Below are positions 24,913 to 60,490 of a DNA stretch of 64,000 bases, in pieces; positions within the stretch are counted from its first letter, which is position 1, and every line of letters begins with the position of its first letter. The notes beneath the pieces are model-generated. The model searched no databases. It was not told where the DNA came from and worked only from the letters and a program-made list of their open reading frames with translations. Origin of the DNA: Phycisphaerales bacterium (GTDB lineage: Bacteria > Planctomycetota > Phycisphaerae > Phycisphaerales > SM1A02). Where the stretch lies: the NCBI GenBank assembly GCA_022446965.1, contig JAKVBV010000006.1:1-64000 (forward strand), read 5' to 3'. The position numbers were made by a program, and so were the translations under genes.

Positions 24913-25691
24913 GCGGGCAGCCCGTAGATGGCGTGCGCCGTGGCGTCGACCTGGTCAACAAAGACCTCCACCGATAGGCCGCGGCGAGCAGCGAGGAAGG
25001 CGGCGACATGGGCGACATGCGCCGGTTGGTTGGGGCGAACGCCTCGAACCGGCACCGGCGACAGGTACGGCGCGTCGGTTTCGATCATCAGACGATCAAG
25101 AGGCACTAGATCCGACGCCTTGGCCACATCGGTGGCGTTGGTGTACGTCACCACGCCGGTAAACGAGAGTGCGGCGCCAAAGTTCAGCAGTCGGGTGGCT
25201 TCGTCTGGGCCATCGGTGAAGCAGTGGAAGATGAATCGATCGCCGGCGAGGCCTGATTCCTGCAGGATTGGAAGCAAGTCGTTGATGGCCTTTCGGTTAT
25301 GAATCACCACGGGCATGATCTGCCCGCCGTCGGCGTCCCACGTGCGAATGAACTCCAACTGGGCGTGCAGGAGCTCGATTTGGGCTGGCAGTGGGGGATC
25401 AGGCCAGTGGTTGTCGAGGCCTATCTCTCCCCAGGCCAGGCATTTGCGTTGCTCGGCGATGGGCTTGAGGCCCTCAAGATCATGGGGGCGGCCCGCCTCG
25501 GACGGGTGGATTCCAGCGGTGCACCAGACCTGGTCGTGCGCTTGGGCCACGGCCAGCGCGGCCGCGGCGTCATCCACATCGGTGGCCACCGACAGCATGG
25601 CATGGACACCGGCCGATTCGGCCGCCGCAAAGACGTCCGGCAGAGTCTCCGACAGGGCACTATTCGTCAGGTGGCAATGGGTGTCAAACAC
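24909..25691 (-). CDS. tatD: TatD-family metal-dependent hydrolase
   Basis: 260 residues from GTG 25691. TIM-barrel amidohydrolase: FDTHCHLTN (H-x-H metal pair) at 2-10, GIHPSEAG, GEIGLDNHWP, HNRKA, FHCFTDG and ETDAPYLSPVPVRG are all in order. The family has DNase/exonuclease activity and is not part of Tat transport despite the name. First gene of the pair with the BtuF-like gene, divergent from the act-cox operon. Confidence 0.93.
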   Translation of the reverse strand: MFDTHCHLTNSALSETLPDVFAAAESAGVHAMLSVATDVDDAAAALAVAQAHDQVWCTAGIHPSEAGRPHDLEGLKPIAEQRKCLAWGEIGLDNHWPDPPLPAQIELLHAQLEFIRTWDADGGQIMPVVIHNRKAINDLLPILQESGLAGDRFIFHCFTDGPDEATRLLNFGAALSFTGVVTYTNATDVAKASDLVPLDRLMIETDAPYLSPVPVRGVRPNQPAHVAHVAAFLAARRGLSVEVFVDQVDATAHAIYGLPA

Positions 25692-25762: not shown

Positions 25763-25791
25763 TTGACACGCGACGCGCAGGCCGCGAAACT
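25763..25791 (+). promoter_or_regulatory. Candidate promoter of the act-cox operon
   Basis: TTGACA at 25763-25768 is a perfect -35; 17 bp later GAAACT is a poor -10 (3 of 6). A start near 25798 would place the palindrome at 25803-25826 just downstream of the transcription start. Confidence 0.35.
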
Positions 25792-25802
25792 CTAGGCCTT
25801 GT

Positions 25803-25826
25803 ACTTCGTGAAATTTTTCACGAAGT
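25803..25826. promoter_or_regulatory. Palindromic operator upstream of the act-cox operon (Rex- or CRP/FNR-like)
   Basis: ACTTCGTGAAA and TTTCACGAAGT are perfect 11-bp arms around TT, ending 9 bp before the actA ATG. The core cGTGAA-N4-TTCACg differs at two outer bases from the Rex consensus TTGTGAA-N4-TTCACAA and also fits GTGA-N6-TCAC of the CRP/FNR family. Placed between a TTGACA box and the GAGG ribosome site, it would suit repression. An mRNA hairpin is the alternative. Confidence 0.6.
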
Positions 25827-25835
25827 CTGTGAGGC

Positions 25836-26510
25836 ATGTCGTCCATGGGCCGTTACCACTACGTCTTCCCGCGGTGGTCAAACCTGATCCTCCCGGCAGC
25901 CGCCATCCTTGGGCCCATTGCGCCCTTGTATGTGGCCTTCGTGGTCGCATGGGGATTCAGTCCTGAAACAACTGACGTGGGCTACCAACCACAACAACCC
26001 ATTCCGTTCTCGCACGCCAAGCATGCGGGTGAGTTGGGCATTGATTGTCGGTACTGCCACAACACGGTTGAGGTGTCACCGCACGCGTCGATTCCGCCGA
26101 CGCAAACGTGCATGAACTGTCACGCGATGATTCATCCGGACAGTCCCGACATCCAGCCGCTCAAGGAAAGTTGGGAATCGGGCCGGCCCATCGAGTGGGT
26201 GCGTGTGCACGATCTTCCTGACTACAGCTTCTTTGATCACAGCGCCCACGTGAATCGTGGCGTGAGTTGCGTGGAATGCCACGGCCGCATCGACACCATG
26301 GAAGTGGTTCGACAAGAGAAGCCGTTGAGCATGGGCTGGTGCCTGGATTGTCATCGCGACCCGGCACCGCACGTACGTGATCCTGATCTCGTGACGCAAT
26401 TGGAATGGGGTTGGGACATGACCGACGCCCATCGCCTTGAAGTCGGCGAGCACTGGCTCGGCGTGAACGATCTTCATCCTTCACAGGACTGCTCCACATG
26501 TCATCGTTGA
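25836..26510 (+). CDS. actA: Alternative complex III, pentaheme cytochrome c subunit ActA
   Basis: 224 residues. One N-terminal helix (~18-40) anchors five c-type heme sites: CRYCH 71-75, CMNCH 92-96, CVECH 145-149, CLDCH 169-173 and CSTCH 219-223. Five hemes and this size match ActA, which passes electrons from quinol to downstream cytochromes. GAGG lies just before the ATG; Met4 is an alternative start. First gene of a thirteen-gene respiratory operon; 13-bp overlap with actB. Confidence 0.93.
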   Translation: MSSMGRYHYVFPRWSNLILPAAAILGPIAPLYVAFVVAWGFSPETTDVGYQPQQPIPFSHAKHAGELGIDCRYCHNTVEVSPHASIPPTQTCMNCHAMIHPDSPDIQPLKESWESGRPIEWVRVHDLPDYSFFDHSAHVNRGVSCVECHGRIDTMEVVRQEKPLSMGWCLDCHRDPAPHVRDPDLVTQLEWGWDMTDAHRLEVGEHWLGVNDLHPSQDCSTCHR

Positions 26511-29500
26511 ACGGCAATGGCCGCCCGACAGGACGAACGTATTGGCGCAGCCTGAACGAGGTTGCTGACACGCCCGAGTTCCGCACGTTCATGCACCGCG
26601 AGTTTCCCTCCGGTGCGACTGAACTTCTCGACGGCACCGATCGCCGTGGTTTCCTCAAGATCATGGGCGCCTCGATGGCGCTCGCCGGCGCGGGCCTCAC
26701 CGGCTGCCGTCGCTGGCCTGAGCAGCACATTGCACCCTTTGCGTCACGCCCCGACGGCACCGTTCCTGGACAGGCGCAGCAGTACGCCTCGATCGTGGAA
26801 CTTGGTGGTATCGCCACGGGCATCCTGGCGACCACACACGATGGTCGTCCCACCAAGCTCGAAGGCAATCCGGATCATCCCGGCTCTGGCGGCGCGCTCA
26901 ACGCGCACCAGCAGGCCATGGTGCTTGACCTCTACGACCCCGATCGCAGCCGCGGTGTGCTTGAACATCCCGGCGACGCCGCCAAGGCGGCGGCGCGAGA
27001 ATGGGCCGACTTCGAACAGTGGTGGGGCACCCACGCTGATTCGCTGGGCACGGGCAAGGGGCTGTGGTTCGTGTCCGAACCCACTGGGTCGCCAAGTGTG
27101 CGTCGCATGCAGCGTGTGATTCGTCGCCGCTTCCCCGATGCCACCTGGGTGAACTGGGATCCAACCGCCTCCGCGGAAAAGGCCGGGCTCGACGCCGCCA
27201 TGGGCGGCGATCTGCGGCCCGTGTACGACCTGTCCAAGGCCGACGTGATCGTGTCGCTCGACAGCGACTTTCTGTGCAGTCATGGCGATGCCTTGAACTT
27301 GTCTCGCCAGTGGGCCACGCGGCGCACGCCGGACAACATGAATCGCCTCTTGGTCGCTGAGCCGGGCCTGAGCCTGACCGGCGCCAACGCCGATGACCGC
27401 TGGGCGATGCGATCCGCCGATGTGGCCGTCATTGCGGCGCACCTCGCGGCAGTGTTTACCGGCGATGGATCAATCGAACGAGCCTTGTCGCCCGAAGCGC
27501 AGGCTGCGGCCGACGCCATGGCTGCGCAGTTGCGAAACGCCAATGGTCGCTCGGTGGTGATCGCCGGTCGCTCCCAGAGTGCTGCCGTGCATCACCATGT
27601 GGCGATCATCAATGAAGCGATGGGCAACACCGGCTCGACGGTGTCGTACGTGCGTGTGTCCGAAGCGGAGATGGCCACGGCTGACCTCAAGGCATTCGCC
27701 ACTGCGGCAGCCAATGGCTCGGTCAACACCGCCGTGTTGATTGGTGTGAACCCCGTGTACGACGCACCGGCCGATCTGGGCTTCGCTGCGGCACTGGGCA
27801 AGGTGGCCAATCGCATCAGCCTATCGTCGCATGTCGATGAAACATCGCGGGCCTGCACCATGCACCTGCCCAAGGCGCACGCACTAGAGTGCTGGGGCGA
27901 CGGCGTGGCCTGGGACGGCACGGTCAGCGTGCAACAGCCGATGATTCTGCCGCTCTACGGCGGCCGATCCATAATCGAACTGCTTGCCGTGATGGCTGGC
28001 GAGGCGGACACCGCCGGCTTCGACATCACGCGTCGCACCTTTGAAGAGCTCACCGGCAAGGCGATGACGCCCGCAGGCGAAACGCCAGGCTACGACGCCG
28101 ATTGGCGCCGCGCTCTGCATGCAGGTGTGATTGAGGGCACCTCCGCAACAGCGGAAACACCGCCGGTGCGTCGCACTGTGGCGCCGCTGCCGATCGAGGA
28201 CGGCGGCATCGAGGTGAACTTCACACCGTCGTACGCGATAGGTGATGGCCGCTTCGCCAACAACGGATGGCTGCAGGAATTCCCCGACCCGATCACCAAG
28301 CTCACCTGGGATAACGCCGTGCTGATGCACGCCGATGATGCCGCCGAAGCAGGTGTGTCTGATGGCGACATCGTTCGTGTCACCGTTGGGGGCACGAGCG
28401 TGGAAGGCCCCGCCATCGTGCAGCCTGGCCAAGCCAAGAGCACCGTGTCGATCGCACTGGGCTGGGGCCGAACCTTCCCCGGTCGAGTTAGCACGGGTGC
28501 AGGCTTCGACGCCTATCCACTGCGTGCATCAAACGCCATGTGGACCCGCACCGGCGCATCCGTGTCGGGCACCGGCGAGTCCATGGAACTCGCTCGCACG
28601 CAGGATCACTTCGCCATCGACTCCATCGGTGGACAGGGCACGCAAGAGCGTCTGCCTGTGCTGTTCCGCGAGGGGTCGGTGGACACGTGGAAGAAGGATC
28701 ACGCCTTCGCCCAGCACATGGGCCACTCCATGGGTCGGTTGTCACTGTGGCAAGAGCAGCAGTTCGACGGCGCCGACTACGCCTGGGGCATGAGCATTGA
28801 TCTGAGCAAGTGCATCGGCTGCGGTGACTGCGTGATCGCCTGCCAGGCTGAGAACAACATTCCCGTCGTGGGTAAGCATCAGGTCATCATGGGGCGCGAG
28901 ATGCACTGGCTGCGGATCGATCGGTACTACCGCTTCGCGTCCGATGGTCATGGTCACTACGACACGTCGAACCCATCGACGGTTGCCATGCAGCCGATGA
29001 TGTGTCAGCAGTGCGAGAACGCACCGTGCGAGCAGGTCTGCCCGGTGGCGGCCACCGTGCACACGACCGACGGTCTCAACGCGATGGTCTACAACCGCTG
29101 CGTTGGCACGCGGTACTGCTCGAACAACTGCCCCTACAAGGTGCGGCGATTCAACTACTTCGACTACTTCCGTCGTGATCCCATGCGGGACACGGGCATG
29201 CTGCAGGTGCAGCCGGATTACTACGTGCGTCGTCAAAGTGGTGGTGACCCGCTGCGTCGCATGCAGTTCAACCCCGATGTCTCGGTTCGCATGCGTGGCG
29301 TGATGGAAAAGTGCACTTGGTGTACACAGCGCATCGAAGCCGCGAAGATCGACGCCCGCAACGCGTGGGTCAAGCTGCCCGAAGCTGAGAAGGCCCAGGC
29401 CAAGCGTGTGGTCATTCCAGACGGCACGATCGTGCCGGCCTGTGCCCAGACGTGTGCGACGGACGCCATCGTGTTTGGCGATCTCATGGATCCCGAATCA

Positions 29501-29691
29501 CAGGTGAGCAAGCTGCATCGCGACGACCTGTCGTACGGCCTGCTGGAAGAACTCAACGTGAAGCCGCGGAACAAGTTCCTCGCACGAGTGACGAACCCAA
29601 CCGACGGCGAGCGGTATCCGCACGACCACGGCGGACATGGACACGGCCATGGATCCCATGGTGATCACGGCCACACGGAGGCGGCGCACTG

Positions 29692-29692
<1 letters not shown>
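26498..29692 (+). CDS. actB: Alternative complex III, molybdopterin-oxidoreductase-like/iron-sulfur subunit ActB
   Basis: 1064 residues, a fusion as in other ActB. A twin-arginine signal (DRRGFLK, 48-54) is followed by a lipobox-like LTGC ending at Cys70, so it may be a Tat-exported lipoprotein. Residues ~75-720 resemble molybdopterin oxidoreductases, which in this family carry no Mo cofactor. From ~770 a ferredoxin domain shows [37 protein letters not shown] and CTWC...CAQTCATD, enough for four Fe-S clusters. Its stop overlaps actC by TGATG. Confidence 0.94.
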
Positions 29693-31106
<1,414 letters not shown>

Positions 31107-31110
<4 letters not shown>

Positions 31111-31691
31111 GCACGGCGCCAACACCCAACGACACTCTGTGGGGCCTCGCGGCGGTCTTTGACACGCCCGCCAAGATCATGCACGCCGCCAAGGCGACGC
31201 GTGAGCGTGGTTTCCGTTGGTTTGATTGCCACACGCCGTTCCCTGTGCACGGGCTCGACTTTGCGATGGGTGTGAGTTACACCATCCTGCCGATCCTCGT
31301 GTTCTTCGGTGGTCTTACCGGCACGTGCCTGGCCATCTTCCTGCAGACGTTCACCAACTCGTTCGAACTGGACATCTGGGCACTGGTGCCTGTGGTGGGG
31401 TACCAGTTCGAAGTGTCGGGCAAGCCGCTCATCAGTACGCCGGCCTTCGTGCCCGTGGCGTTCGAGTTGACGGTGCTGCTCTCGGCCCTGACCACCGTGT
31501 TCGGCATGTTCGTACTCAACAAGTTGCCGTGCCTGTACCACCCGGTGCTCAAGTCCACACAGCTCAAGCGCATCACCGATGACCGCTTCGTGCTGGTGAT
31601 CGAAGCTGGTGATCCGGAATTCGTCATGGAGGACGCGACCGATTTCCTCCGCAGTCTCGACCCCGAGTCGATTGTTGAGCTGGAGGCCTGA
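31107..31691 (+). CDS. actD: Alternative complex III, membrane subunit ActD (DUF3341)
   Basis: 194 residues. DUF3341 features: N-terminal [39 protein letters not shown], two helices (~58-78, ~118-138), then the [11 protein letters not shown]-type segment [12 protein letters not shown] and a C-terminal FVLVIEAGD domain. Ends 3 nt before actE. Confidence 0.92.
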
Positions 31692-31694
31692 CCC

Positions 31695-32486
31695 ATGGGT
31701 TCTCACGCACCACGACAACGACCTGGCTGGGCGATCTTCGACGTGCCGAAGATCATCTGGGCGGTGTTCATTCTGCTGGGTTGCATCGCGACCATCCCGC
31801 CGGCGGTGATCTACTACGCCCGCACGGCCCCCAAGGTGGAACCGCGCATCCACTTGATCCAGAACATGGACAACCAGCCGCGGCTCAACGCCCAGCAGAC
31901 GTCCAATCAGTTCCGTGACAATCGCGCCATGCGTCAGCCGGTTGCTGGCACGGTGGCTCGCGGTGCGATGGTCGACGACACGCACCTATGGTTGGGCACG
32001 GTGGACGGCGCCTTCGCAACCACCTTCCCCGATTCGATCACCGTGGATCACGCGCTGCTCGAACGCGGCCGCGAGCGATATGACATCTATTGCCTGCCAT
32101 GTCACGGCGTGTCCGGCATTGGCGACGGGCCGGTGCACAAGAAGGCCATGAATCTTCTGGAGAACGGCACCAACGGCACCACCTGGGTGCAGCCGCGGAA
32201 TCTGCATGAAGATGCGGTGCTCGAGCAGTCGCCCGGCCAGATCTTCCACACGGTCAGCAACGGCATGAACAACATGGCCGGCTACTCGGCACAGATCCCC
32301 GTGCACGATCGCTGGGCGATCGTGGCCTGGGTGGAAGCCCTGCAGGTGTCCCGCAACGCACCGCCAGAGCATGTGCCCGGTGCCGACGACTTCAAGCAGG
32401 TGGTGCGCACGGCTGCTGATGCTGAGGCATTGAGTGAGCCCGCTGCCGATCCCGCAGCACACGACCACGGTGGAGGTGCCCAGTGA
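31695..32486 (+). CDS. actE: Alternative complex III, monoheme cytochrome c subunit ActE
   Basis: 263 residues. One N-terminal hydrophobic segment (~18-40) containing LLGC, which may be a weak lipobox or simply a membrane anchor. One heme site CLPCH near 134-138 and a distal Met candidate in NGMNNMAGY. His/Ala/Asp-rich C-terminus (AHDHGGG). It likely hands electrons from ActA to the caa3 oxidase. Overlaps actF by GTGA. Confidence 0.92.
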   Translation: MGSHAPRQRPGWAIFDVPKIIWAVFILLGCIATIPPAVIYYARTAPKVEPRIHLIQNMDNQPRLNAQQTSNQFRDNRAMRQPVAGTVARGAMVDDTHLWLGTVDGAFATTFPDSITVDHALLERGRERYDIYCLPCHGVSGIGDGPVHKKAMNLLENGTNGTTWVQPRNLHEDAVLEQSPGQIFHTVSNGMNNMAGYSAQIPVHDRWAIVAWVEALQVSRNAPPEHVPGADDFKQVVRTAADAEALSEPAADPAAHDHGGGAQ

Positions 32487-33769
32487 ACACCACACTGAAC
32501 GCGACCACTGAACAGCTGCACCTGGGTGCCATGGGCAAGAAGTTCACCGGCGTCGGTGTCACACTCGCCGTGATCGGCGTGGGTGGCACACTGGCCCTGG
32601 CCTCGTCCGCTGGTGCTGAAACCTTCTGGCGGGCCTATCTGTTCGCCGTGTCTGCGGCGTTCGCCATCTGTCTCGGCGGCCTGTTCTTCACCATCCTCCA
32701 GCACATCGTGCGAGCCGGGTGGTCGGTGACCGTGCGTCGAACTGCAGAGGGGCTGGCAGCCAACCTCAAGTGGATGTGGATCCTGTTGGTGCCCATGATC
32801 GTGCTGGTCTGGGGCGGCAACGGCCACCTCCTGTACGAATGGGCTGACACCGACCTCGTCGCCCACGACTACCTGCTGCAGAAGAAGGCCGCGTATCTGA
32901 ACCCCACGTTCTGGTGCATTCGCATGATTGCCTACGGCGCGATCTGGGCGGTGCTGGCCAAGTTCTTCGTGGGCCACTCCATCGCACAGGATGCCGACGG
33001 CAACGTGTCCCGTTCGAGCGCCATGCAGATGCTGGCGCCCATCGGCATCGTGCTCTACGCCCTGACGCAGACCTTCGCCGCGATCGACTGGATCATGTCG
33101 CTGCAGCCCACGTGGTTCTCCACGATGTTCGGCGTGTATTACTTCGCCGTCAGCTGCACCGGTTGTTTCGCCACGATGATCATCCTGTTGGCCGTGCTCA
33201 AGAACGGCGGCAAGCTAGGCAATGCGGTGAACACCGAGCACTTCCATGATCTGGGCAAGATGCTGTTCGCCTTCGGTGTGGTCTTCTGGGCCTACATCGG
33301 CTTCAGCCAGTACATGCTGATCTGGTACGCCAACATCCCCGTGGAAACCGGCTGGTTCTTCCCGCGGCAGATGGGTGAGTACTTCTATGTGAGTTGGATC
33401 CTGATCATCGGCCACTTCATGCTGCCCTTCGTGGTGCTGGTGTCCCGATGGCCCAAGCGATTCCCCGGCGTGATCGCTGCCATCGCCACCTGGATGGTGT
33501 TGATGTTCCTCGTCGATGTGTACTGGCTGGTGATGCCGGTCGTGCCTACCGATGCACTGATCAACTCTGAAACCAACGACGCACTCGTGGCCGCGGTCGA
33601 AGCGGGCGAAGTGAGCATCGGCTGGAACCCACACCTGATTCAGCTCACGGCCATCGCCGGGGTGCTTGGTCTGGTGCTGGCTGGCTGGGCCTTCGCGTTG
33701 CGTCGCTGCAGTCTGGTGCCCGTCCGTGATCCGCGTTTGCCCGAAGCTCTGGCGTTTGAGAATCTGTGA
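32483..33769 (+). CDS. actF: Alternative complex III, membrane subunit ActF
   Basis: 428 residues from GTG 32483. About ten helices, NrfD-superfamily, paralogous to ActC. Seen: YLFAVSAAFAICLGGLFF, FAAIDWIMSLQPTWFSTMFGVYYF (typical of ActF), FGVVFWAYIGFSQYMLIWYANIPVET and GHFMLPFVVLVSR. Stop overlaps the next ATG as TGATG. Confidence 0.92.
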   Translation: MNTTLNATTEQLHLGAMGKKFTGVGVTLAVIGVGGTLALASSAGAETFWRAYLFAVSAAFAICLGGLFFTILQHIVRAGWSVTVRRTAEGLAANLKWMWILLVPMIVLVWGGNGHLLYEWADTDLVAHDYLLQKKAAYLNPTFWCIRMIAYGAIWAVLAKFFVGHSIAQDADGNVSRSSAMQMLAPIGIVLYALTQTFAAIDWIMSLQPTWFSTMFGVYYFAVSCTGCFATMIILLAVLKNGGKLGNAVNTEHFHDLGKMLFAFGVVFWAYIGFSQYMLIWYANIPVETGWFFPRQMGEYFYVSWILIIGHFMLPFVVLVSRWPKRFPGVIAAIATWMVLMFLVDVYWLVMPVVPTDALINSETNDALVAAVEAGEVSIGWNPHLIQLTAIAGVLGLVLAGWAFALRRCSLVPVRDPRLPEALAFENL

Positions 33770-34125
33770 TGACCGAACACGACACCAATCAGATTCAACT
33801 TCCCGGTGATACCGAAGATCCCGGCGGCGGGATGACGTGGCTGCTGGGCTTGGCCAGCACCTTCCTGCTGATCTCGGTGCTCATCGCAACCAACGCGATG
33901 TTCTATCACGTGGCCGCGTACGCCACGACCGATAAGGAAATCGGAGCCTATTCGGTGGCTGCCGAGCTCATGCGTGAAGAACGCAAGACACAGCTCGAGC
34001 AGGAGCCTTACTGGGAAGCATGGACCGACATCGACGGTGAGCTCACCGGTGAGCGCGCGCTGCACGTGCCCATGGACACGGCTGCCGACATCGTGGTGAA
34101 GCGATGGGGAGGCGCATCGAAGTGA
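33769..34125 (+). CDS. Small single-helix membrane protein in the act-cox operon
   Basis: 118 residues. One helix at about 22-44 (MTWLLGLASTFLLISVLIAT), then a charged soluble tail with no cofactor motif. Its position right after actF is that of the small accessory subunit (ActG) reported for Rhodothermus-type complexes, but no sequence identity can be asserted. ATG 33769 overlaps the actF stop; a GTG one codon earlier is possible. Confidence 0.75.
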   Translation: MTEHDTNQIQLPGDTEDPGGGMTWLLGLASTFLLISVLIATNAMFYHVAAYATTDKEIGAYSVAAELMREERKTQLEQEPYWEAWTDIDGELTGERALHVPMDTAADIVVKRWGGASK

Positions 34126-34994
34126 TCCGGCAACGGCTCATCTCGATTGCATGTCTGGGGCTGGCCGCCACGGCCGCCGCGGAAACCCTGCGCACTGCCG
34201 ATGTGATTCCGCCGGAGTTCGACGGCGTGGGCATCGTGCAAAATCTCGATCAGCCGGTGCCCGGCGATCTGGTCTTCATGGACCACGAAGGCACGGCCGT
34301 GCAGATGAGCGATCTGGTTGCCGGTGGCGAACTGCCCGTGATCCTCACGCTCAACTACTACCGATGCCCGATGTTGTGCACGCTCACGCTCAACGGCCTG
34401 GTGGATTCGCTCGAGAACGTGAATCTGCAGCCTGGCGTGGACTATGAACTAGTCACCGTGAGCATCAACCCTGATGAAGGCCCAGAACTGGCTGCCCAGA
34501 ATCGCAAGGGCTACATGGCGATGCTGCAGGGCAAGGGTGTGGATACGTCCGCTGCTCGCTGGTCGTTCCTCACGGGGAACCAGGCGCAGATTGAGCAATT
34601 GGCCGATGCTGTGGGCTTCGGCTATCGCTACGACGAGAAGAGTGGCGAGTACGCCCACACGTCGAGCATCATGTTCATCACACCCGATGGCCGCATCTCG
34701 AAGTACATGAACGACGTGCGGTTCCCCTCACGTGACGTTCGATTCGCATTGGTGGAAGCATCAGAGGGCCGAATCGGCACGCTGATGGACAGCTTTGCCC
34801 TGTTCAACTGCTTCCAGTGGGATCCCGAGGCCAACAGTTACGTCGCCGATGCATGGAAGCTCATGCGTCTCGGCGGTGTGTTCATCGTGTTGCTTATCGT
34901 GGTCGGCTGGTACGTGCTGTGGCGCATGGGTCCGTCGAATCACGACAACAATCAGTCCCCCGGTGTGATGGCCGGGCAGGAAGTGCTGACATGA
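34122..34994 (+). CDS. Sco1/SenC-type copper chaperone with C-terminal anchor
   Basis: 290 residues from GTG 34122, which overlaps the upstream stop as GTGA and has GGGGAGG at 34106-34112. The ATG at 34104 would place the ribosome site inside the gene. Signal peptide ~1-20. Thioredoxin-like Sco fold with copper ligands C82-x3-C86 (YRCPMLC) and His179 (EYAHTSS). An extra helix at ~250-268 near the C-terminus is not usual for Sco, which normally has an N-terminal anchor. It should load Cu-A of the oxidase subunit II encoded next. Confidence 0.9.
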   Translation: MIRQRLISIACLGLAATAAAETLRTADVIPPEFDGVGIVQNLDQPVPGDLVFMDHEGTAVQMSDLVAGGELPVILTLNYYRCPMLCTLTLNGLVDSLENVNLQPGVDYELVTVSINPDEGPELAAQNRKGYMAMLQGKGVDTSAARWSFLTGNQAQIEQLADAVGFGYRYDEKSGEYAHTSSIMFITPDGRISKYMNDVRFPSRDVRFALVEASEGRIGTLMDSFALFNCFQWDPEANSYVADAWKLMRLGGVFIVLLIVVGWYVLWRMGPSNHDNNQSPGVMAGQEVLT

Positions 34995-36115
34995 TGTCCC
35001 TGCTCACGATGATCGGTGCAGCCGCGCCGTCCAAGGAAGCCACCTTCTGGATGCCCGAATCTGCATCCACCGTGGCGCCCATGGTCGACGGGCTCATGGA
35101 CTTCATCAACATCGTCTGCTACATCTTCTTCGCGTTGGTCGTGGCGGCGTTGTTCTACTTCGCCATCAAGTACCGCCAGCGTGAAGGCGATTACACGTTC
35201 GACAGTGACGGCCCGACGCACAATATGGCGTTGGAAATCACCTGGACGGGTATTCCCACGATCATCGTGATCGTGATGTTCTGGCTGGGCATGCAGACCT
35301 ACATGGATCTGCGGACCGCACCAGCCAACTCATACGACGTCAACGTGACGGCTCAGAAGTGGTCGTGGACATTCCAGCATCCGGAGTTCGCAGTCACCGA
35401 AGCCAACGAGCTCACGGTGCCTGCCAACCGCCCCGTGCGGCTGATCATGGCCTCCCAGGATGTGCTACACAGTTTGTATGTGCCCGCCTTCCGCGTGAAG
35501 CAGGATGTGGTGCCGGGCCGGTACACCAGCCTGTGGTTCGAGGCGACTGAGCCGGGCACCTACCAGTTGTACTGCGCCGAGTACTGCGGCAAGGATCACT
35601 CCCTGATGCTGGCCACCGTGCACGTGTTGCCGTGGGATGAGTATCAGACCAAGATGGGCAAGTTGGCCCGGGAGTACGAGGACATTCCCGATTCGCAGCT
35701 GCCGGCCTACGCCATCAACCGCCTCTACAACCGGTGTGCCTCGTGCCACAGTCTTGATGGATCCTCGGGCACTGGTCCGTCGTTCAAGGGCCTGTGGGAT
35801 CGCACGGTCAATGGCACCACCGAGTTCACCAACGGCCAATCCGTCGGCGACCTGTCTGGTCCCGGTGGTGAGTACGAGTTGGCCGAGAACTACATCCGCT
35901 CGTCCATCGTGCAGCCGCAGCGCCATGTGGTGCAGGGCTTCACGGGGGCCATGCCGTCCTTCCAAGGTCAGCTCAAGGAGCGTCAGATCGACGCCCTCGT
36001 GTTGATGATGAAGCACCTAGATCAGGTTGTCGACGCAGACGGCAACATCATCGAGAGCCCGAACCTCGGTGGCGATGACGCCGCCGAGCCGGAGCAGGAG
36101 GGCGCGTCCGAATGA
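34991..36115 (+). CDS. coxB: Cytochrome c oxidase subunit II with fused cytochrome c domain (caa3)
   Basis: 374 residues. Two N-terminal helices (~35-60, ~85-105), then a cupredoxin with all Cu-A ligands: H160, C195, E197, C199, H203, M206. A C-terminal cytochrome c domain carries CASCH at 249-253 and a Met in GAMPSF, so this is a caa3-type oxidase. Starts with two in-frame ATGs overlapping the sco stop; ends overlapping coxA by ATGA. Confidence 0.95.
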
Positions 36116-37815
36116 GTACCGTCGACGCTTCCAAAACGTCCGGGCCCGCGCCGGTCACGGACAACTACCTCACACACACACGCGGTGTCTGGTCGTGGCT
36201 GTTCACGCTCGATCACAAGCGCATTGGCCTGATGTATCTGGTGTCCGTGTTGGGTTCATTCTTCCTCGGCGGGATCATGGCACTGCTCGTGCGTACGCAG
36301 CTGCTCACGCCCGAGGGCCTGATCATGGATCAGGATCAGTACAACCAGGTGTTCACCCTGCACGGTGCCATCATGGTGTTCCTCGTGATCATCCCGTCGA
36401 TTCCGGCGGCGTTGGGCAACTTCGTGTTGCCGATTATGTTGGGGGCCAAGGATGTGGCCTTCCCGCGGCTGAACTTGTTCAGCTACTGGCTGTGGATCGT
36501 GGGCGCCCTGTGCTTCGTACTGGCCCTGTTCACCGGCGGCCTCGACACCGGCTGGACCTTCTACACGCCGTACAGCATTGACACCGGATCGGCGATGGGC
36601 GGTGTGATCCCGGCCCTCACCGGCGTGTTCATTCTGGGCTTCGCCTCGATCTTTACCGGCATGAACTTCGTGGTGACCATTCACCGCCTACGTCCGCCGG
36701 GTATGACCTGGTTCCGCATGCCGCTGTTCCTGTGGTCGATCTACGCCACAGCCATCATTCAAGTGCTCGCCACACCCGTGTTGGGCATCACGCTCGCCCT
36801 GCTCGCCGTGGAACGGGCGTTCGGCATTGGAATCTTCAATCCGGCCCTCGGTGGGGACCCGGTGCTGTACCAGCACTTCTTCTGGTTCTACAGCCACCCG
36901 GCCGTGTACATCATGATTCTGCCGGGCATGGGCATCATCTCCGACCTGATTGCTGTGCACAGCCACCGACACATCTTTGGTTACAGCTTCATCGCCTGGA
37001 GTTCCGTCGCGATCGCGGTGTTCTCCTTCCTCGTGTGGGGCCACCACATGTTCACCTCGGGCCAGAGCGAATTGGTCACCGTGGTGTTCTCCTTCATCAC
37101 GTTCTCGGTGGCGATCCCATCGGCGGTGAAGGTGTTCAACTGGTTGGCCACCATGTACAAGGGCACGATCAGTTGGAACACGCCCATGCTCTATGGCATG
37201 GGGTTCATCTTCATCTTCACCATCGGTGGCCTGACCGGCCTGCACCTTGGCACGCTGGGCACGGATGTACACCTGCACGACACCTACTTCGTGGTGGCGC
37301 ACTTCCACTACGTGATGATGGGCTCGGCGTTGATCGCCTTCATCGGCGGCATCCATCACTGGTGGCCCAAGATGACCGGCCGCATGTACAGCGAACTGTG
37401 GGGCCGCATCGCCTTCACGCTGGTATTCATCGGTTTCAACCTGACGTTCTTCAGTCAGTTCATGCTGGGCTCGCAGGGCATGCCCCGTCGCTACGCCAGC
37501 TACCCCGAAGACGCCGGCTTCCAGCTGTATCACATCCTCTCCACGTGCGGTTCGTACGTGCTCGCACTGGGCTTCTTCATCACGGCTGGCTATCTGATCC
37601 AGTCGCTGATCGGCGGGCGTCGTGCTCCGGCCAACCCATGGGGCGGGCGCAGCCTCGAGTGGCAGTGCACGTCACCGCCACCGCACGACAACTTCGCCGA
37701 AGCACCGACCGTGGGTGACTGCTACGACTTCTCGGTGCTCCGCTGGGATGAGAACGAGCAGGGCTATGTGTGGCGTGAAGACGTCTCGCATCCTGCAAAC
37801 GAGGCACACACGTGA
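36112..37815 (+). CDS. coxA: Cytochrome c oxidase subunit I, type A2 signature
   Basis: 567 residues, twelve or more helices. Low-spin heme His in FTLHGAIMV; Cu-B ligands in YSHPAVY (~260-266) and WGHHMF; heme ligands in VVAHFHYV. The D-channel glutamate of type A1 (HPEVY) is Ala264, and Tyr260-Ser261 precede the His. This YSHPxVY pattern defines type A2 oxidases such as that of Rhodothermus marinus. It reduces O2 to water and pumps protons. Overlaps coxC by GTGA. Confidence 0.96.
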
Positions 37816-38801
37816 GCCACGATCACGACCATCCCGACTTCCTCGGACACCACTGGGAGAATCCCAAGCAGCAGTTCGAGGCCGGCAAGCTCGGCATGTG
37901 GCTCTTCCTCACGACGGAAGTGCTGCTGTTCGGCGGCCTCTTCGTGGCGTACACGGTGTGGCGATCGAACTACCCTGAGCTGTTCAAGTACGGCTCGCAG
38001 TTCCTGGACACCAACTGGGGTGCCACGAACACCGCCGTGCTGCTGATCAGCTCGATGACGATGGCCATGGCCGTCACCTATGCTGCTCGCGGCAAGATGA
38101 AGGCTGTCGTGATCTGTCTCGTGCTCACGCTCTTCGGGGCCGCGGGCTTCATGGCGATCAAGTACGTGGAGTACAGCCACAAGTTCCATGAGGGCTTCTA
38201 CCCGGGCCTGGCGTTCTACGACGAACCGCATGCTTCGGAGCTGTGGCTGCCACTCGATGAAACCGCCACGGCGGCCAAGGCCCATGCCCATCAGATGGAC
38301 ATGGACGAGTCGGCCATGCTGCACGCTGAGGCATTGGTTCGAGCCGAACTGCCCGAAGCACCGGCCGATGCCCAGAATTGGAACAAGTCCATTTCGGGCC
38401 CCGGTCCTGCCGGGCTGACCACGAATCTGGAGCAGGAAGAACTCGCTGAGTTCACCACGTTCCTGCCGGAGTTCGTGACCGGCGACATCGAGGATGCCGG
38501 TGAAGAACTCGCGTTCGCCGAGCATCACGAGCCGGGCGAAGAACCGCATCTCTCGCACCCGCTGCAGGACCCAACGCGTCCCACCAACGCCCAGAAGTTC
38601 TTCACGATCTACTTCATGATGACGGGCCTGCACGGCATCCACGTCGTGATCGGTGGCATCGTGATTCTGTGGCTGCTGTGGCGCACGCTGCGAGGCGACT
38701 TCAACCGTGAGTATTACACCCCGATCGATCTGGGCGGCCTGTATTGGCACGTCGTGGACTTGATCTGGATCTTCCTGTTCCCAATGTTCTATCTGATCTG
38801 A
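37812..38801 (+). CDS. coxC: Cytochrome c oxidase subunit III with large central insertion
   Basis: 329 residues from GTG 37812. Five helices: ~27-47, ~72-90, ~97-117, then ~265-290 and ~308-329. Between the third and fourth lies an insertion of about 120 residues (~135-257), acidic and rich in Glu, Ala and His, with no cofactor motif. Family features [23 protein letters not shown] and [14 protein letters not shown] are intact. The N-terminus is His/Asp-rich. Confidence 0.92.
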
Positions 38802-38814
38802 CGCGAGGCCAAGC

Positions 38815-39249
38815 ATGTCCGAACATCATGAACATGGAGCAGTGGGGCACATCGTCCCGATCAAAATGCTGGTTGGCGTGTGCGCCATCTTGCTGTTCCT
38901 CACCTTCGTCACGGTGTGGGTGGCCAAGTTTGACTTCGAAACGGTCAACATTGGCGAAGCCAACATCCTGATCGCCATGGGTGTGGCCACGGTCAAGGCC
39001 ACATTGGTGTGCCTGATCTTCATGCACCTCAAGTGGGATCGCCCCTTTGTGAGCTTCATCTTTCTCGCGAGTGTGCTGTTCGTGCTGCTGTTCATCACCT
39101 TCTCGCTGATGGACACGCACGCCAATCAACCTGCATTGGTGCCGGGCAACTCTCCGGTAATCCAGCAGAAGCTTGATGCCCTCGAGGCATCAGAGCAGGC
39201 GCATGCCGCGGCCGGACATGCCCCGGCCCACGATGACGCCGGGCACTGA
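38815..39249 (+). CDS. Cytochrome c oxidase subunit IV-type protein
   Basis: 144 residues. Three helices (~17-35, ~43-63, ~73-95) in the prokaryotic subunit IV arrangement, with LVCLIFMHLKWDRPFV the typical family segment. The C-terminus is Ala/His-rich. It starts 13 nt after coxC and overlaps the next gene by 17 nt. Confidence 0.88.
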   Translation: MSEHHEHGAVGHIVPIKMLVGVCAILLFLTFVTVWVAKFDFETVNIGEANILIAMGVATVKATLVCLIFMHLKWDRPFVSFIFLASVLFVLLFITFSLMDTHANQPALVPGNSPVIQQKLDALEASEQAHAAAGHAPAHDDAGH

Positions 39250-39859
39250 TCCGCCGTCGGGCCGCACAGGACCTTCGTCCCGGGGCACAGGTCCTCGCAA
39301 CGTCTTCGCCACCGAAGCGCAGCGTGCATCGGCCAGCCGATTCGGGCTGGTGCTGTTTCTCATCACGTTGGCCATGCTCTTTGGCGCCGTCATGGTGCTG
39401 CTGCTCGTGCTGCGGTTGGACGACGCATTGTGGCCGGAGACCATGCCGCCGTTGCCGTGGCAGATCTGGTTGAGCACGGCGGTGTTGGTGCTCGAGAGTG
39501 CGGTGTTGGTGCGATGTTGCCGTGCCGAGACGGCGCAGCAGGCCAAGGGCGTGCTGTGGATGGCCTTGGCGTTGGCCGTGGTGTTTCTTGGCTCACAGGT
39601 GTGGGCGTGGTGCACGTGGTACGGCGCCGGATCCCCCATGCCTGAGCGGGAGCTGGTGACATCAGGCTTCTACGTGGTGACCGGCGTCCATGCGGCGCAT
39701 GTGCTGGGTGGACTGGTGCCGCTGGGCATGCTGGTCTGGTTCGCCACCGGCGATGTGTGGGCCGACCGCCAGCGGTCGCAGGTCAGGCTCACCTCCTGGT
39801 ACTGGCACTTTCTGGACGTCGTCTGGGTGCTGCTGGTGGTGTTGCTGCTTCTGCAATAA
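39233..39859 (+). CDS. Second cytochrome oxidase subunit III-like protein
   Basis: 208 residues. Pro/Arg/Gly-rich N-terminus of ~45 residues, then five helices. FYVVTGVHAAHVLGGL and SWYWHFLDVVWVLLV are subunit III signatures. It is shorter than coxC and lacks the insertion. ATG 39233 gives a 17-nt overlap with the subunit IV gene; the longer frame starts inside it. Last gene of the operon, 6 bp from the convergent peptidase. It may be an alternative or additional subunit. Confidence 0.82.
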   Translation: MTPGTDPPSGRTGPSSRGTGPRNVFATEAQRASASRFGLVLFLITLAMLFGAVMVLLLVLRLDDALWPETMPPLPWQIWLSTAVLVLESAVLVRCCRAETAQQAKGVLWMALALAVVFLGSQVWAWCTWYGAGSPMPERELVTSGFYVVTGVHAAHVLGGLVPLGMLVWFATGDVWADRQRSQVRLTSWYWHFLDVVWVLLVVLLLLQ

Positions 39860-60455: not shown

Positions 60456-60490
60456 TCTGTTTGAGCTGACTAGGATCATCTGATCCAACC

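Follow-up and report, generated by a model that had tools for sequence, protein, structure and literature searches.

Upstream of a gene cluster for respiratory enzymes in a Phycisphaerales bacterium lies a perfect inverted repeat, and the question raised by this locus is which regulator, if any, recognises it. The analysis was based on a window, i.e. a contiguous stretch of DNA with a length of 64,000 nt, and on the 2.24 Mb genome to which it belongs. The original prediction had described an 11-bp perfect inverted repeat between a TTGACA box and the first gene of a respiratory operon and had proposed that a Rex or a CRP/FNR-like protein binds there. The repeat was found at exactly the predicted position, 25803..25826, and is annotated here without strand as a predicted Rex operator (ACTTCGTGAAATTTTTCACGAAGT) that is kept before actA in Rex-bearing relatives, with the 18-bp Rex core at 25806-25823. 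The arms (25803-25813, ACTTCGTGAAA, and 25816-25826, TTTCACGAAGT) have a length of 11 nt, are 100% complementary and are separated by the 2-nt spacer TT. Perfect inverted repeats with arms of at least 11 nt and spacers of at most 8 nt are represented in the window by this palindrome and by one G+C-rich repeat at 60490, while 0.42 such repeats per window are expected by chance according to first-order Markov shuffles. By itself the palindrome is only moderately unusual and proves little; its significance derives from its position and its conservation rather than from the repeat alone.

The genes behind the palindrome form a co-oriented run on the forward strand from 25.8 to 39.9 kb. It starts with the genes of alternative complex III (ACIII): actA for the multiheme cytochrome c subunit (25845..26510, conserved start MGRYHYVF), actB with molybdopterin-binding-like and 4Fe-4S domains (26498..29692), actC of the NrfD family (29692..31110), actD (PF11821 ActD, 31107..31691), actE for a cytochrome c (31695..32486) and a probable actF for a membrane protein (32483..33769), which was assigned by its position and sequence character and has no Pfam match. 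A small ORF with no Pfam match (33766..34125) separates actF from the gene of a SCO1/SenC copper chaperone (34104..34994), which is followed by coxB for subunit II of a caa3-type cytochrome oxidase, fused to a cytochrome c (34991..36115, start approximate), coxA for subunit I (36112..37815) and coxC for subunit III (37812..38801). Two small membrane ORFs (38815..39859) are last in the run and, judged from the ORF list and sequence character only, probably encode a protein like oxidase subunit IV and a further one like subunit III. Upstream, a gene for a TatD-type nuclease is transcribed in the opposite direction and bounds the intergenic region at 25691.

The predicted actA promoter consists of a perfect -35 box TTGACA at 25763..25768 (+), which was found 5′ of the palindrome as originally described and is kept in relatives 16-18 nt from the -10 box, and a probable -10 box GAAACT at 25786..25791 (+), located 17 nt after the -35 box and present as GACACT in G001 and G036. 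The match of the -10 box to TATAAT is weak in the window's genome and strong in most relatives (TAGCAT, TACGAT, TAAAAT). Transcription would start near 25798-25800, which would place the operator at about +4 to +28. A Shine-Dalgarno-like GAGG at 25831..25834 (+) lies 10 nt before the ATG at 25845. In nearly every relative the operator is preceded by a TTGACA-like and a TAnnaT-like box with 16-18 nt between them, and the distance between the end of the -10 box and the operator is 7-15 nt at nearly all sites, whereas the distance between operator and start codon ranges from 1 to 118 nt. This near-fixed distance to the promoter together with the variable distance to the start codon argues for a promoter-linked DNA operator and not an RNA element. 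By its position the operator would cover the transcription start, where a bound dimer is predicted to block RNA polymerase. The geometry of the repressor roadblock that had been suggested is supported relative to the promoter but not relative to the start codon; the 9 nt given as the distance to the gene apply to the ATG at 25836, while the start that is conserved among relatives is the ATG at 25845, 18 nt from the operator.

Comparison of the palindrome with the published Rex operator consensus TTGTGAANNNNTTCACAA, as quoted in PMC5317091, revealed agreement at 12 of the 14 specified bases. The two mismatches are symmetric (T to C and A to G) and affect the second position of each half-site of the generic TTGTGAA-N4-TTCACAA; the palindrome has the GTGAA/TTCAC half-sites and departs from the generic site by the T to C change in both. 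The locus shares with the known Rex regulon (Rex operators of the type TTGTGAANNNNTTCACAA, ROP) the 18-bp dyad, the GTGAA/TTCAC half-sites, the position over the transcription start, the respiratory targets and a bona fide Rex partner in the genome. It differs in the outer base, which is C-G and not T-A in both half-sites of the window's genome, in the target, which is here the ACIII/caa3 operon, and in the number of strong sites found in the genome, which is one, with none by rex.

The genome search for rex that the original prediction had called for identified a single gene (PF06971 at G000:C80:67866-68006, 60.9 bits with a cut-off of 27). Its full-length product scores 214.8 bits against NCBIfam NF003995 'Rex' (cut-off 126), aligns over the full length to solved Rex structures (PDB chains, 1e-31 to 1e-42) and has both the N-terminal Rex winged helix and the C-terminal NAD(H)-binding Rossmann domain. 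In an alignment with Thermotoga maritima Rex (PMC8836258) the equivalents of Gln46, Arg48, Gly58, Gly61, Tyr64, Tyr100 and Asp191 are kept, among them Gln46 and Arg48, which read the DNA, the glycines of the wing, and the NADH-reading Tyr100 and Asp191; the GxGxxG loop is kept as GAGRIG, and in the recognition helix Arg48 is kept and Lys49 is replaced by Arg, as in Streptococcus agalactiae Rex. As a side observation, rex, atpD and nuoD (G000:C80; L067, L183, L196) lie within about 30 kb in the window's genome, G036 and G006, and within about 60 kb in G001 and G033, which suggests an ancestral energy-gene neighbourhood.

For the analysis of conservation, the sequences upstream of actA from 53 genomes of the order were each scanned with a leave-one-out PWM, derived from the remaining sequences. 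The scores were bimodal, with 32 sites between 10.5 and 35 bits and the rest below 8. The consensus of the relatives is TTYGTGAAAAAAGGCACRAA (pattern TTYGTGAAA-N5-CACRAA), GTGAAA is invariant in the 31 best sites, and the TTGTG half-sites present in most relatives correspond to a standard Rex operator. Of the 37 genomes with rex, 31 have the site, and of the 16 in which rex was not detected, 1 has it (Fisher p=1.2e-7), the single exception being G012, which is 74% complete; the conservation among relatives on which the original prediction had been staked was thus observed. When the rex labels were permuted within families, p=0.006 was obtained, and the link between rex and the site is therefore not only a family effect. 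Within the main family f1 alone the co-occurrence was modest (p=0.019) and lost significance without genomes below 90% completeness (p=0.17). Six rex-bearing genomes (G020, G021, G022, G023, G052, G055) have no site at actA, and the link is therefore not universal. In the ActA tree, the pair G010/G034 and G024, all of which lack rex, are placed within a family in which the site is otherwise present in most members. In a scan of named genomes, most relatives from the Phycisphaerales were found to carry the site (L219-L245 apart from L222 and L225), and the ACIII operons that had been retrieved from Acidobacteriota, Myxococcota and other Planctomycetota had none. As far as sampled, the wiring of Rex to actA appears to be specific to this Phycisphaerales lineage.

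Three other readings of the site were weighed against Rex. The core of the palindrome, GTGA-N6-TCAC, is also the core of CRP-type sites, and a protein of the CRP/FNR family could bind here and activate or repress the operon; strong HTH_Crp_2 matches occur in 6 of 61 relatives. However, most of the genomes that encode strong CRP-type proteins (G034, G038, G040, G045, G052, G060) have no site at actA, the operator is located downstream of the -10 box, which is unsuited to a CRP activator, and the invariant AAA after GTG fits Rex. The CRP/FNR alternative was rejected on the gene content of the window's genome, whose 97%-complete assembly contains no PF00027 (cyclic-nucleotide/FNR-type) domain and a single HTH_Crp_2 match of 20.7 bits, below the cut-off of 27, and it is regarded as extremely improbable. 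The absence of any Rex or CRP-family protein, which would have spoken against both proposals, was not observed, as the one rex gene is present.

The transcribed repeat might instead act as an RNA hairpin in the 5′-UTR, i.e. as an attenuator or translational control element, since in the window's genome it can form a stem of 10 bp closed by a 4-nt loop (-12.5 kcal/mol). In many relatives only 5-6 bp of this stem are left (-2 to -5 kcal/mol) although the linear motif is kept, no terminator-like T run was found, the site co-occurs with rex, and a matching site precedes nuoD and atpD in some relatives. Due to these weak stems and the promoter-fixed geometry, with a nearly constant distance to the -10 box and 1-118 nt to the start codon, the hairpin was rejected as very unlikely. 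Co-occurrence is unable to separate Rex from another dimeric repressor that was co-inherited with it in the Phycisphaerales family and recognises the site, and with C in place of T at its outer base the site deviates from the generic Rex consensus. On the other hand, most relatives carry a motif like that of common Rex sites (TTGTGAAA...CACAA), Rex typically acts on targets of this sort (complex III/oxidase, nuo, atp), and no alternative candidate was found; such a regulator is considered very unlikely.

The preferred reading, to which we assign a probability of roughly 0.93, is that the palindrome represents the operator of the NADH/NAD+-sensing repressor Rex acting on actABCDEF-SCO1-coxBAC; the Rex proposal is supported by the agreement with the consensus, the single rex gene, the co-occurrence of site and rex, and the nuoD and atpD sites in Rex-bearing relatives. 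When NAD+ is dominant, a Rex dimer would occupy 25803-25826, just past the -10 box at about +4 to +28, and would block the start of RNA polymerase or promoter clearance at the operon. As soon as respiration falls behind and NADH accumulates, Rex would bind NADH and leave the DNA, and the resulting synthesis of alternative complex III and the caa3-type oxidase would allow NADH to be re-oxidised. In characterised Rex proteins the NAD+-bound form binds and represses, and NADH triggers release (PMC8836258). We infer the binding of Rex at this site, and repression and NADH release by analogy with those proteins. In this marine group, which is for the most part uncultured, such a switch would specifically couple alternative complex III to the NADH/NAD+ ratio. 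Full-text literature searches, outside which most subscription papers lie, returned nothing on a link of Rex to ACIII or to Planctomycetes, nor on the regulation of ACIII. The locus adds a further case to a type of switch that is already known, with an ACIII/caa3 target that was not found described in the literature searched.

With respect to further targets, TTCGTGAANNNNTTCACGAA with at most 2 mismatches has a single occurrence in the genome, GTGAANNNNTTCAC has one additional occurrence, within coding sequence, and the looser pattern TYGTGAAANNNNNNACRA is found solely at the actA site. No second strong operator copy was found in the window's genome by these pattern searches, and none of the 2-mismatch pattern matches elsewhere in it was convincing. 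Rex may therefore, as judged from pattern searches, control only the actA operon in this organism. The occurrence of the motif before nuo that had been proposed as a check was seen in some relatives but not in the window's genome, which has no site before its own atpD (L183) or nuoD (L196). A matching site right behind the -10 box, which is TATACT/TATCCT-like, was present before nuoD in 7 of 30 relatives (G009, G032, G016, G033, G022, G026, G011; loci L189, L195, L197, L199, L204, L205, L214) and before atpD in 5 of 30 (G032, G033, G026, G011, G018; loci L159, L161, L162, L164, L170), and several pattern matches in relatives fall in coding sequence. Among the examined genomes, a convincing autoregulatory site in the rex neighbourhood was found in none but G052, the window's genome included among those without one. 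In G052 (L150), which has the most divergent Rex, no actA site was observed, but a Rex-like site lies where the rex gene itself begins, and autoregulation is possible there. In G038 (L078), in which rex is present and actA was undetected, a strong site at about 1501-1520 lies just before a HypF-like hydrogenase maturation gene.

In Streptomyces, the actinobacterial Rex regulon comprises genes of the aerobic respiratory chain such as nuo and atp as well as cytochrome bd, and rex is autoregulated. The regulon described here resembles it in that the targets belong to the respiratory chain, nuo and atp among them, and not to fermentation; it differs in that ACIII and the caa3 oxidase take the place of cytochrome bd as the oxidase target, with no bd target or autoregulation seen. 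In Caldithrix abyssi, whose genome also has ACIII, a Rex site was predicted by consensus before rex-hydrogenase genes (PMC5317091). Both cases thus concern a consensus-predicted Rex site in a phylum without experimental Rex work and with ACIII in the genome, whereas the Caldithrix site precedes the rex-hydrogenase genes and none is given before its ACIII operon in the examined text of PMC5317091.

In a sub-group of relatives only 1-5 nt separate the operator from the start codon; the operator centre is AAAAAAGG, which places GG about 10 nt upstream of the start. Loci with an operator adjoining the actA start are L011, L012, L016, L017, L028, L030 and others. GG is present in 11 of 12 operators at most 12 nt from the start and in 3 of 19 farther away (p=9e-5, mostly related genomes). 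In this sub-group the operator may double as Shine-Dalgarno sequence or ribosome-binding site, and if so, one element could serve both repressor and ribosome. A broader proposal is tentative and rather doubtful, namely that Rex of the Phycisphaerales family has come to regulate hardly any target other than the ACIII/caa3 operon, with a shifted operator (TTCGTG half-sites), and that the sub-group operator TTTGTGAAAAAAGGCACAAA-N3-5-ATG abuts the start and doubles as ribosome-binding site.

Two separate lineages, the genus of the window and the group of G003, G017, G018, G027, G030 and G035, have C in place of T as the outer half-site base. The T to C change covaries with an exchange in Rex, from Tyr/Phe to others, at the residue that follows 'DLx' (p=0.003); this residue was set aside as the cause, as it makes no DNA contact in the T. 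maritima structure (PMC8836258) and the test was post hoc. In the same structure the wing Arg60 touches O2 of the base at the outer half-site position (PMC8836258), and in most Rex proteins here Arg60 is replaced by Pro or Ala. Loss of the wing Arg60 is a candidate reason for the relaxed base choice, and a more plausible one than the residue after 'DLx'.
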